From Cytophagaceae bacterium (lineage in GTDB: Bacteria; Bacteroidota; Bacteroidia; Cytophagales; Spirosomataceae), in contig CANFVE010000014.1 in assembly GCA_947450365.1 (NCBI GenBank), positions 1 through 64,000 on the forward strand: DNA of 64,000 bases, in the 5' to 3' direction. Every line of letters begins with the position of its first letter. Within the stretch, counting starts at the first letter, position 1. The notes beneath the pieces were generated by a model. It ran no database searches, was not told the DNA's origin, and worked only from the letters and a program-made list of their open reading frames with translations. A program made the translations under genes and the position numbers. This document shows positions 30,725-33,932 of the stretch, piece after piece.

Positions 30725-31604
30725 AGAAAAATTTCAACAAATACACTTACAAATACCCAGTCCATTACATGAAATCCATGATTCCTTATGGTCAGAGCAA
30801 AATATTCGAATTTTTATCAAACGAGATGATTTAATTCATCCCATCATTTCAGGTAATAAATGGCGCAAATTAAATGAATATATTCGGTTAGCCCAACAAA
30901 CACCAGACTATTCCCTACTTAGTTTTGGCGGCGCCTTCTCGAATCACCTATATTCCCTCGCTTATGTCGGGTATGTCATGGGTATAAAGACTATTGGAAT
31001 AATTCGCGGAGAGGAATTAAACATTCAAAGCAACCCCTATTTGATTCAAATGAATCAATGGGGAATGAATTTACATTTTATATCAAGAGATGCCTATCGA
31101 AAAAAGGAAATACCTACTCAGCTAGGAGAAATTAGATTCATTTTAATTCCAGAAGGGGGATATGGTAAATTAGGTTTAAAAGGAATGAAAGACCTAAGTT
31201 CAGAAATCATGCAAGAAATAAAACCTGATTATTTGATTACCGCACTCGGTACAGGTACCACTGCATTAGGCCTAATCCAATCTTATAATATCAAAACAAT
31301 TGGGATTTTAACTCTAAAAAATAAAAAAGAAATTGAAGAGCATATCATTGAACATGCTATAAATGCCGAAAATTTAGACCTTCATACGGTCTATGTTTTT
31401 GATAAATACGCGAAAAGCCATGATTTTTTAGATACTTTTTGTGCGCTATTTGAAACATCTCATCAAATAAAAATAGAGCCCATATACACCGGAAGGATGT
31501 TCTATGGACTCTATGATTTATTAAAAAAGAAATATTTTGAATCGGGCTCAACAATCGTCGCCTTACATACAGGCGGCATCAAATTAACCGACGGAGCCTT
31601 CTAA
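30717..31604 (+). CDS. D-cysteine desulfhydrase / ACC deaminase family PLP enzyme
   Basis: This 295-residue fold-type II PLP enzyme has the lysine motif SGNKWRKL (PLP Lys) and [15 protein letters not shown] for cofactor and substrate binding, and a C-terminal HTGGI. The family includes D-cysteine desulfhydrase and 1-aminocyclopropane-1-carboxylate deaminase; sequence alone does not separate them. I use the ATG at 30717; the longer frame starting at 30648 would lie inside rluD. The 3' end overlaps sufB by 21 bp. Confidence 0.88.
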
Positions 31605-33032
31605 AGAAATAGCTAATAACTTTTGGGCTTCCACTGCGAATTCCATGGGCAATTGATTCAATACTTCCTTCGCGTATCCATTTACTATTAACGCAATAGC
31701 TGTTTCAGAGGAAAGACCTCGCTGATTGCAATAAAATATTTGATCTTCGCCAATTTTAGAGGTCGTTGCTTCATGTTCTACTGACGCTGTATTATTTTTA
31801 ACCTCCAAATAGGGAAACGTATGTGCCCCACAGGTATCCCCTAATAATAAAGAATCGCATTGTGAAAAGTTCTTAGCTTTATCCGCTCTTTTACTGATTT
31901 GCACTAAACCACGATAAGAATTTTGTGAAAATCCAGCCGAAATACCTTTAGAAACAATTCGAGATTTGGTGCCTTTGCCCAAATGGATCATTTTGGTTCC
32001 TGTATCTGCTTGCTGGTAATTATTTGTAACCGCAACTGAATAAAATTCTCCAATGGAATAATCCCCTTTCAGGACCACAGATGGGTATTTCCAGGTTACT
32101 GCCGAACCTGTTTCGACCTGGGTCCAAGATAATTTCGCATGAGCCCCGTCACAAATTCCACGTTTGGTCACAAAATTATATATCCCTCCTTTTCCTTCTT
32201 TATCTCCTGGGTACCAGTTTTGAACTGTTGAATATTTAACCTCAGCACCAGCATGAACAAATATTTCGACTACCGCAGCATGCAACTGATTTTCATCCCG
32301 CATAGGCGCCGTACAGCCTTCTAAATAACTGACATAGGATTCATCTTCGGCAACGATTAAGGTACGTTCAAATTGACCAGTTCCAGAAGCATTAATCCTG
32401 AAATAAGTTGATAATTCCATCGGGCAACGAACACCTTTGGGAATAAAACAAAAAGATCCATCTGAAAATACCGCAGAATTAAGGGCAGCAAAGAAATTAT
32501 CCTTGACGGGAACAACACTTCCCAAATACTTTTTTATTAATTCAGGATGTTCCTGAACCGCTTCCGAAATGGAACAAAAAATAACACCCTTTTCGGCTAA
32601 AGTATCTTTAAACGTCGTTGCAACAGATACTGAATCAATGACCGCATCCACGGCAACATTCGATAAACGCTTTTGTTCATCCAAACTTATGCCTAATTTT
32701 TCAAAGGTTCTGCGAAGTTCAGGATCGATTTCGTCTAATGAATTTAACTGCTTCTTTTGAACAGGCGCAGAATAATATTTTAGGGATTGATAGTCCGTTG
32801 GCGTATACGCCACATTCGCCCAGGTAGGTTGTTTTAGGGTCAACCAATGTCTGAATGCTGCTAAACGCCATTCCAACATCCATTCAGGCTCATTTTTCTT
32901 TTTCGAAATAAAATGAATAATGGATTCATCCAATCCTACGGGAGCCTCATCCGTTTCAAAAAAAGACTCAAAACCATATTTATAATCTGATGAAGTAACC
33001 TCTTGTAAAATCTCGTCTACCTTTTCTGCCAT
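31584..33032 (-). CDS. sufB: Fe-S cluster assembly scaffold SufB
   Basis: This 482-residue SufB is part of the SufBCD scaffold that builds Fe-S clusters. Characteristic regions include [25 protein letters not shown]-like central beta-helix segments, YLEGCTAPM, and the conserved late [16 protein letters not shown]. It is followed by a convergent gene, so sufC, sufD and sufS are not downstream here. A candidate promoter lies about 22-29 bp upstream. Confidence 0.95.
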
Positions 33033-33112: not shown

Positions 33113-33577
33113 TTAAAATAATGGTGTATTTCGGATAAGGCTTTCTTGTAAGGATATAAATGTTTCGGTTCGTTGGATGCCGGTAACCCGTTGAATTTTA
33201 TCGTGTAAAACCTCGCGTAGATGCTGGGTATCCCGACAAATAATTTTGGCAAAAATGGAATAAATACCTGTTGTATAATGAATATTGACAACTTCTGGGA
33301 TTTTTTCTAATTGTTTAGCCACATCCTCATATAATGAGCTTTTATCAAGATAGATACCCAAAAATGCGCTGATATCCCAACCAATTTTAGAATAGTCAAT
33401 TAGTAATTGTGCACCTTTTACGATACCTAAAGATTCCATTTTTTTCATACGAACGTGAACCGTTCCACCTGAAACATCCAATCTTTGGCCTATTTCTGTA
33501 TAAGGTAAATTAGCGTCAGCCACTAATATTTCCAATATTTTAAAGTCAAGAGGATCTAAATCAAATTTTCGTTCCAT
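33113..33577 (-). CDS. Lrp/AsnC-family transcriptional regulator
   Basis: This 154-residue protein has an N-terminal winged HTH (LDFKILEILVADANLPYTEIGQRLDVSGGTVHVR in the family pattern, about 8-40) and a C-terminal ligand-binding RAM domain (about 65-145). Such proteins sense amino acids and form octamers that control transport or metabolism. It lies 80 bp upstream of sufB on the same strand, and both are transcribed leftward. Its target genes cannot be told here. Confidence 0.92.
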   Translation of the reverse strand: MERKFDLDPLDFKILEILVADANLPYTEIGQRLDVSGGTVHVRMKKMESLGIVKGAQLLIDYSKIGWDISAFLGIYLDKSSLYEDVAKQLEKIPEVVNIHYTTGIYSIFAKIICRDTQHLREVLHDKIQRVTGIQRTETFISLQESLIRNTPLF

Positions 33578-33646: not shown

Positions 33647-33678
33647 TTTGAATTTATAAAAATACCTATTTATATTTG
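33647..33678 (+). promoter_or_regulatory. Promoter of the tRNA-like gene
   Basis: TTTG (33647-33650), 20 bp, then TATATTTG (33671-33678): a full match to the Bacteroidota -33/-7 consensus. The expected start is near 33685, about 30 bases before the tRNA-like sequence. Confidence 0.7.
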
Positions 33679-33713: not shown

Positions 33714-33856
33714 TGTAGGGTGATGAAATTGGCAGACGTGCCCTCCTGTCTCGGGGGTGATGAATCTAGGATAAACGCGGCATAATGGGTTGACCACTAA
33801 GTTAGTTCTGTGTCGTGGCTAACTACATCTTGGAGGTTCGAATCCTTCTCCTACAG
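33714..33856 (+). tRNA. Atypical type II tRNA-like gene, GTC at anticodon position
   Basis: A 143-nt RNA with a cloverleaf core: acceptor TGTAGGG/TCCTACA, a leucine-like D-arm with GG, anticodon stem CCCTC/GGGGG around loop CTGTCTC (GTC at 33748-33750), T-stem GGAGG/CCTTC with loop TTCGAAT, discriminator G, no CCA. C33713 can pair with G33856, giving an 8-bp acceptor. The 74-nt variable region (33758-33831) is far longer than usual. It appears folded: GATG (33759-33762) pairs with CATC (33826-33829), and 33789-33797 pairs with 33815-33823. Its own promoter and terminator flank it. GTC is an aspartate anticodon, yet the body is of leucine/serine type, so the charged amino acid, if any, is unknown. 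Confidence 0.6.
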
Positions 33857-33901
33857 CATTTTAATTAATTAGTTTTTAGTTTGTTGATGAAGTGTAATGT
33901 T

Positions 33902-33932
33902 AAAAGCAATTCTATTTTAGGATTGCTTTTTT
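33902..33932 (+). terminator. Rho-independent terminator after the tRNA-like gene
   Basis: AAAAGCAAT (33902-33910) pairs with ATTGCTTTT (33922-33930), and four further inner pairs leave a TTT loop, giving a 13-bp stem. It is followed by T residues. It closes the transcript begun at about 33685. Confidence 0.85.

Follow-up and report, generated by a model that had tools for sequence, protein, structure and literature searches.

A gene for a tRNA-shaped RNA

The window analysed here is a stretch of 64,000 nucleotides from Cytophagaceae bacterium (GCA_947450365.1, contig CANFVE010000014.1, positions 1 to 64,000, forward strand), in which positions 33714–33857 (+) are the gene for one member of a family of tRNA-shaped RNAs. 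Signals for transcription lie on either side of it on the same strand, as the original prediction had stated: TTTG at 33647–33650 and TATATTTG at 33671–33678, a motif that we take to be a Bacteroidota-type promoter (33647–33678), and an intrinsic terminator at 33902–33932, in which the inverted repeat AAAGCAAT..ATTGCTTT leads into a run of T residues. A TAnnTTTG box is present no more than 120 nt upstream, mostly at 20–50 nt, in 109 of 179 homologous RNA loci, as against 10% of shuffled sequences. Upstream and divergently transcribed is a gene for an AsnC-like regulator of the Lrp/AsnC family (33113–33577, −), which scores 160 bits with the NCBIfam AsnC model (cut-off 227) and 44 bits with Lrp; beyond it lies sufB (31584–33032, −), and sufB-like genes are near the RNA in 34 of the 146 loci compared. 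Directly before the terminator is a nearly invariant 20-nt 3′-trailer element (AGTTTGTTGATGAAGTGTAAT, 33878–33898, +), which has the RNA upstream of it in several genera. The same element also occurs without the RNA, alone before terminators at other loci; it was seen, besides the window, at L031, L037, L124, L135, L137, L269–L271, and L273–L275, and it is possibly a small-RNA family in its own right or a 3′-derived small RNA.

The RNA folds as a complete cloverleaf with the T-loop and D-loop consensus of RF00005. The acceptor stem is formed by TGTAGGG (33714–33720, beginning with U1 and G2) and 33849–33855, and the 3′ strand continues through the discriminator G73 and C74 to 33857. The D-arm (33723–33739) has a 3-bp stem with both-side changes at two of three pairs and 96% of cells paired, and its layout is identical to that of a relative's tRNA-Leu genes, in agreement with the leucine-like D-arm first proposed. 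The anticodon arm (33740–33758) has 5 bp plus a G–U and compensatory stem changes, and its loop (33746–33752) reads CTGTCTC with the triplet GTC at 33748–33750, again as predicted. The T-arm (33832–33848) has a canonical TTCGAAT loop and compensatory changes, and a contiguous 5-bp T-stem is present in 153 of 176 aligned rows; two loci (L034 and L040) have a T-stem bulge of two extra bases (TT), which is unusual for tRNAs.

The variable region of 71 nt consists of a basal helix V1, a 5′ bulge, helix V2, an internal loop RAYAAA/CUAA, and an apical helix V3. V1 (33759–33762 with 33826–33829) is the GATG/CATC base of the original prediction; its four pairs hold in 100% of cells, with GGTG/CACC, GAAG/CTTC, GGGG/CCCC, and others substituting for GATG/CATC among the members. 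V2 pairs TAG (33767–33769) with CTA (33823–33825); all three of its pairs form in 124 of the 167 rows that were parsed (9 of 176 were unparsed), compared with a mean of 51 and a maximum of 67 in 1000 shuffles. The internal-loop strand GATAAA (33770–33775), opposite CTAA (33819–33822), recurs through the 176-row listing, and V3 (33776–33784 with 33809–33817), whose length depends on the member, was derived by reading the sequence; the alignment counts took in its first pair alone, which covaries as CG, GC, and UA. An apical motif, GGGTTGACCAC (33787–33797), recurs in 69 of 176 host rows and in 50 of 62 rows of the phage set. Two pairings put forward earlier were not confirmed. Relatives favour V2 and V3 over a helix between 33789–33797 and 33815–33823, and the GACCAC motif in the 5′ half of that helix is present in only 69 of 176 host rows. 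The eighth acceptor pair is not a family feature: of the 179 loci, 86 have C at position −1, 53 have T, and 40 have A. A pairing of the anticodon loop with a GGGA in the variable arm was also considered and rejected, the G-run being part of helix V2. Open reading frames run over the RNA itself (for example GRSRTCTGRL...) in L109, L092, and others, recur across genomes, and could carry conserved-hypothetical-protein annotations.

Conservation and distribution in bacteria and phages

The Rfam and ARAGORN searches made here pass over this RNA. It was unmatched in an Rfam 15 (RF00005 tRNA) search of the window, both at gathering and up to an E value of 5, and ARAGORN called three ordinary tRNAs in the window and not this one; a search of the single-contig genome G007, of the same genus, with the Rfam tRNA model gave 34 hits at E≤0.1, among which the homologue at C1:2374728–2374974 is absent. 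Folded singly, the window RNA is about as stable as shuffled sequences (z −0.69; 50 of 200 shuffles fold as well), and the case for it thus rests on comparison. Searches with blastn recovered close copies within the genus and diverged copies in other families. Among 17 members, aligned with MAFFT only and with the structure read from that alignment, 99.5% of cells fit the cloverleaf (33714–33856 in the window) and the variable-arm base, and both-side changes are seen at 13 of 26 pairs, a number reached by none of 500 shuffles. For 88 distinct members, aligned as matches of a covariance model (R1) to which they are fitted and towards whose structure they lean, the figures are 99.3% of cells paired and both-side changes at 17 of 26 pairs (0 of 500 shuffles), with slid controls at 53–59%. 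Compensatory changes are present in all of the cloverleaf stems and in the variable-arm base. The feature is a real, conserved RNA with a tRNA fold; a pseudogene or a chance resemblance is rejected on the covariation together with the distribution, and neither a lack of homologues nor a loss of pairings in relatives, named at the outset as grounds for abandoning the idea, was encountered.

Of the 148 genomes of the window's order, 106 carry the RNA, the window's own among them, and a further order member, G049, has it split at contig ends. In the class it was matched in 45 of 247 genomes (36 of the 238 that lie outside the order), and in the phylum in 41 of 395. These R1 counts were made by hand from listings at E≤1e-18, with divergent members under that threshold missed; scores at the level of tRNA-Leu reach about 59 bits, and one true tRNA-Leu, in G747, reaches 67.9 bits and was left out, which makes the phylum count 41 and not 42. 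Genomes without the RNA include those of the small-genome families f8 and f21. Among the matches listed, which are 80 of 119 pattern-scan stretches, are Hymenobacter, Dyadobacter, Spirosoma, Cyclobacterium, Algoriphagus, Echinicola, Pontibacter, Emticicia, Flammeovirga, Aquirufa, and Saprospiraceae. Tandem copies are recurrent, with up to six in each of two genomes (G070 and G125), and a plasmid search gave no match to the RNA. The 176 distinct homologous host sequences that were aligned range from 109 to 196 nt. There is in addition a 77-nt member without the long arm (L365, 1001–1077, −, genome G047), with a variable region of about six bases, which ARAGORN calls as tRNA-Asp(atc); it keeps U1–A72, G2–C71, G73, U35, C36, and C38, and the long arm is thus not essential to what is conserved.

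Copies are also carried by phages. The RNA pattern was found in 79 IMG/VR stretches (L281–L359), all 79 of which were confirmed by R1 at 76–139 bits; the viral nature of the contigs was checked for part of them. Ten proteins from six viral loci were compared with PHROG, giving terminase (L297, L303), portal (L297), DNA ligase (L311, L345), and a phage GroEL family protein (L311), with two proteins unmatched. At least one ARAGORN tRNA lies no more than 2 kb from 45 of the 79 viral copies, and at least two from 29 of them; in the 636-kb record of an uncultured phage, a copy with 74.7% identity to that of the window sits next to tRNA genes. A search of INPHARED with two phage-derived queries gave no match. 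Across 57 distinct phage rows, from which 18 low-scoring or truncated matches were left out and for which the search pattern contained the loop, G2–C71, G73, and C74 are invariant, pair 1–72 is U–A in 54 and A–U in 3, and pair 3–70 varies. Of the 57 viral stretches returned by a scan with the loop left free, 53 were known from the CT[AG]TCTC pattern; the other four, reading TTGTCTC (three) and CGGTCAC (one), keep U35, C36, and C38.

The apical loops of the phage copies have a feature of their own, a palindrome of at least 8 nt following GACCAC in 36 of 50 rows (25 of 38 distinct tails), compared with about 7% of shuffles. In host copies the figure is 4 of 69 rows (4 of 61 distinct tails), as in shuffled sequences, and the palindrome is thus rejected as a general feature of the family. 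After GGGGTWGACCAC the phage palindromes vary in sequence and include GCGCGC, TTGTGCACAA, GCATGCATGC, and GCCGGCCGGC; one loop form, AAGCGCGCA, resembles the HIV-1 dimerisation loop. The pattern suggests that two phage RNA molecules may pair with each other through these loops. Some phage members from large contigs (L286, L287, L308, L352, and L357) show an apparent additional stem-loop, placed before GGCAGAC in the D-arm region, together with an internal-loop variant, RAATAGR/TGAA.

Identity determinants and genomic associations

Comparison of the RNA with canonical tRNAs shows a mixture of features. Seven are invariant in the 88 distinct host rows, U35, C36, C38, G73, C74, U1–A72, and G2–C71, and in a 94-row alignment G2–C71, G73, and C74 hold in all 94 and U1–A72 in 93. 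Position 34 is a G in 83 of the 88 rows, A in three, U in one, and C in one, such that the triplets UUC and CUC occur once each. Position 10 is a paired G in only 8 rows, A in 59, U in 11, and unpaired in 10, and the pair at 1–72 is U–A; in bacterial tRNA-Asp, G1–C72 is strictly conserved. Among the canonical tRNAs of G007 a U1–A72 pair is confined to tRNA-Asn and tRNA-Gln, a third such entry, Arg(CCT), being read as an ARAGORN offset. The D-loop is GGCAG[AC] in 87 of 90 rows (three unparsed) and, with the numbering of 20a assigned in this analysis, contains no U20a. According to the portions of PMC9976931 covered here, the bacterial Asp set comprises G73, G10, G34, U35, C36, and C38, with G2–C71 as a minor element; the Leu determinant is A73; and U1–A72 permits amidation of Asp-tRNA-Asn, while G1–C72 and U20a oppose it. 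On its sequence the RNA is therefore Asp-like at its end and in its loop, Leu-like in its body, and of the Asn/Gln type at its first pair, and it looks like a substrate for tRNA-dependent amidation.

Both U33 and a purine at position 37 are expected of a decoding tRNA, and each of the 33 distinct canonical tRNAs found in G007 has them. In the 88 rows of the RNA family, U33 is present in 76 and replaced in 12, and position 37 is a pyrimidine in 85. This combination makes decoding unlikely, and a normal tRNA-Asp(GTC) coexists with the RNA in a same-genus genome. The original prediction had offered either a non-standard tRNA or a tRNA-derived RNA used outside decoding, and with 176 distinct homologous sequences aligned it is the second of these, without the eighth acceptor pair and the second variable-arm pairing, that is supported. 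The Asp and GatCAB determinant pattern, the AsnC-like neighbour, the co-occurrence with GatB, and the phage copies formed no part of it.

The AsnC-like gene lies divergently upstream of the RNA in 90 of 146 loci, at a median distance of 154 bp and in the same orientation in all 90; 56 loci lack such a neighbour in the stretch examined, and three locus pairs among the 146 have identical upstream sequence and are probably from the same organism. NCBIfam AsnC is the best match for all six neighbours tested, at 140–171 bits and so below its cut-off of 227. In E. coli, AsnC activates asnA and asparagine abolishes the activation, as described in the portion of PMC4482635 consulted. By analogy with that pair, and from the adjacency, transcription of the RNA is probably set by the AsnC-like regulator beside it.

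Among genomes of the class or phylum, GatB was matched in all 40 that carry the RNA and in 25 of 40 that lack it (Fisher p 1.2e-5, without correction for phylogeny). These genomes, picked before the result and mostly for completeness, are 28 of the 36 positive class genomes outside the order with 12 of 17 further phylum genomes, and 40 of the 202 negative class genomes. In families f61 and f56 it is the RNA-negative genomes tested (G221 and G323 in f61, G256 in f56) that are without GatB, while G184 (f24) and G225 (f65) have GatB and lack the RNA, in families that contain RNA-positive members. Within the order, GatB is present in 14 of 14 positive and 5 of 8 negative genomes, with G049 and G047 counted as positive, and the test on an earlier split into positives and negatives gave a p of 0.05. 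In the window's genus, all 16 genomes of at least 90% completeness have the RNA and GatB, one GatB being partial and under the cut-off; six bins of 73–89% completeness have the RNA with GatB unmatched.

AsnRS scores above its cut-off in 51 of 59 relatives but not in the window's own bin, and GlnRS does so in 5 of 10 genomes tested, the window's included; in the other five, GatCAB would be needed for Gln and need not serve the RNA. Six of the ten genomes tested for AsnB, all RNA-positive, have a match above the cut-off; G000, G007, G020 (two part matches), and G057 have none, and several copies in some genomes make the gene hard to interpret. E. coli-type AsnA was considered as a gene anti-correlated with the RNA and gave no signal, being nearly absent everywhere (3 of 80 genomes, 2 of 40 positive and 1 of 40 negative). 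G007 has AsnRS, GlnRS, and GatB, with AsnA unmatched and no AsnB over the cut-off, and for a gene set of this type it has been proposed, in the part of PMC4206432 covered here, that GatCAB makes Asn on tRNA. The part of PMC3927822 consulted lists 12 of 14 Bacteroidetes with GlnRS and without gatCAB, so that, as far as that list goes, GatCAB is not general in the phylum.

A proposed carrier role and its alternatives

We propose, with a probability of roughly 0.45, that the RNA is a non-decoding carrier derived from tRNA-Leu that would be charged with Asp, probably amidated to Asn, and linked to an AsnC-type regulator. AspRS would charge it through G73, G34/U35/C36, C38, and G2–C71, a step that the established rules make rather probable, and GatCAB would convert the bound Asp to Asn because U1–A72 is present and the D-loop is without U20a, a step for which the same rules leave the chances evenly balanced. 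An RNA with a GUC anticodon and Asn attached would insert Asn at Asp codons and be toxic in translation. This risk would account for three features that would keep the RNA off the ribosome: a U33 that has drifted, a pyrimidine at 37, and a large variable arm. The AsnC-like regulator would set its transcription, much as E. coli AsnC activates asnA; under such control the RNA would probably serve asparagine supply or sensing, although this link is drawn from context and is tentative. The charged RNA may release free Asn or deliver it to another acceptor, and phages may carry copies to keep or redirect its function. It is similarly a speculative picture that the RNA acts with AspRS and GatCAB as a scaffold for making or sensing asparagine, under an AsnC-type regulator, in a layout where an RNA gene would occupy the place that asparagine synthetase A has in E. 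coli, with the copies captured by large phages able to self-pair through their palindromic loops. If the carrier proposal is true, this is a tRNA kept for metabolism rather than translation. The family suggests a possible reason for the retention of GatCAB in some bacteria that have AsnRS as well as GlnRS, and it allows a test of whether a tRNA can persist purely as a metabolic carrier; the determinant pattern makes the question of aminoacylation testable with two purified enzymes.

The invariant Asp features, the co-occurrence with GatB, the AsnC-like neighbour, the 77-nt member, and the gene set and canonical tRNAs of G007 count in favour of the carrier. Against charging by AspRS are the lack of G1–C72 and, mostly, of G10, and the five rows of 88 with a base other than G at position 34; AspRS is not known to take class II tRNAs. 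The RNA-negative genomes that have GatB, the six RNA-positive bins without a match to it, the need for GatCAB in supplying Gln where GlnRS is missing, the loci without an AsnC-like neighbour, the AsnC scores below the cut-off, and the six genomes with AsnB also count against the carrier, to which the scarcity of AsnA lends no support. A different role, which we consider unlikely though the foremost of the alternatives, is regulation or decoy without any charging: in the host or on behalf of a phage, the RNA would bind AspRS, an anticodon nuclease, or a tRNA-modifying enzyme by mimicking a tRNA. Carriage by phages, with at least two tRNA genes close by in 29 of 79 viral copies, the invariant U35, C36, and C38 of the loop, and the palindromic apical loops, which suggest RNA–RNA contact, would all suit a decoy, but the invariant G73–C74 and G2–C71 and the near-invariant U1–A72 exceed what a loop decoy needs, and the association with GatB is left unaccounted for.

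Nor does the long arm make charging by SerRS probable. A seryl-tRNA-like donor recognised through its long arm and G73 would resemble the allo-tRNAs, which in the part of PMC7609411 consulted are suggested to be Ser acceptors and can bear GUC, and G73, G2–C71, and a large variable region all fall within the bacterial Ser set of PMC9976931, as far as covered here. The same source portion describes serine identity as independent of the anticodon, which would leave U35, C36, and C38 unexplained; moreover the Ser set includes C72 where this RNA carries A72, a long arm is missing from the 77-nt member, and the 7-bp acceptor and 5-bp T-stem differ from the 8/4 or 9/3 arrangement of allo-tRNAs. The carrier proposal shares its evidence for charging with another, improbable reading, in which the RNA, charged with Asp or Asn, would contribute to a non-ribosomal product (a peptide, a lipid, or a cell-wall amino acid) and not to asparagine supply. 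Other non-decoding tRNAs do serve enzymes making such products, but the commonest neighbour here is the AsnC-like gene, and no recurrent transferase was seen near the RNA by eye, in neighbour clusters that are unannotated. We also doubt strongly that the RNA is a tRNA-Asp that does decode and merely has an unusual body, a reading for which the GUC triplet, the Asp features, the ARAGORN call of the 77-nt member, and the location among phage tRNA genes could be cited; positions 33 and 37 depart from the rule that every canonical tRNA of G007 follows, a relative has a normal tRNA-Asp, and the family includes the UUC and CUC triplets.

Among known RNAs, the carrier candidate resembles tRNA-Leu in its 3-bp D-stem with an 11-nt loop of the AAATTGGCAGAC type (the tRNA-Leu(GAG) of a relative carries the comparable GTGAAATTGGTAGACAC), a 6-pair anticodon stem, a V stem, and a 2-nt linker, but differs from it in having G73 in place of A73, an Asp-type loop, and the V1/V2/V3 region with its internal loop. 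It is like tRNA-Asp (GUC) in U35, C36, C38, mostly G34, G73, and G2–C71, and unlike it in its class II body, U1–A72, the usual lack of G10, the unfixed U33, and the pyrimidine at 37. With allo-tRNAs and selC-like tRNAs it shares a long variable arm and an unexpected anticodon, but not the acceptor/T layout, and it has a Leu-type D-arm and Asp features; membership in tRNA-Asp, tRNA-Leu, or the allo-tRNAs thus fails on the features compared. In tRNA-dependent asparagine synthesis (ND-AspRS, tRNA-Asn, and GatCAB), Asp likewise sits on a U1–A72 RNA with GatCAB as partner, as it would here; the systems described, in the source portions covered, use a decoding tRNA-Asn, whereas here the carrier would be separate and non-decoding. 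No description of the RNA was found in the literature searched, which covered few subscription papers and included parts of PMC7609411, PMC8007984, PMC9976931, PMC3927822, PMC4206432, and PMC4482635. The family is best taken as a non-decoding tRNA for which neither an Rfam match nor a published description was found, and it matters in the first place as a conserved tRNA-like RNA that the Rfam and ARAGORN searches made here miss although it is present in most genomes of an order and in phages. A tRNA-shaped RNA that does not decode has a precedent in tmRNA; the RNA described here is tRNA-shaped and taken as non-decoding too, but has a complete cloverleaf with an anticodon arm and G73, and no tag reading frame was seen in it. 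Genes like the 77-nt member of G047 may be annotated as tRNA-Asp elsewhere.
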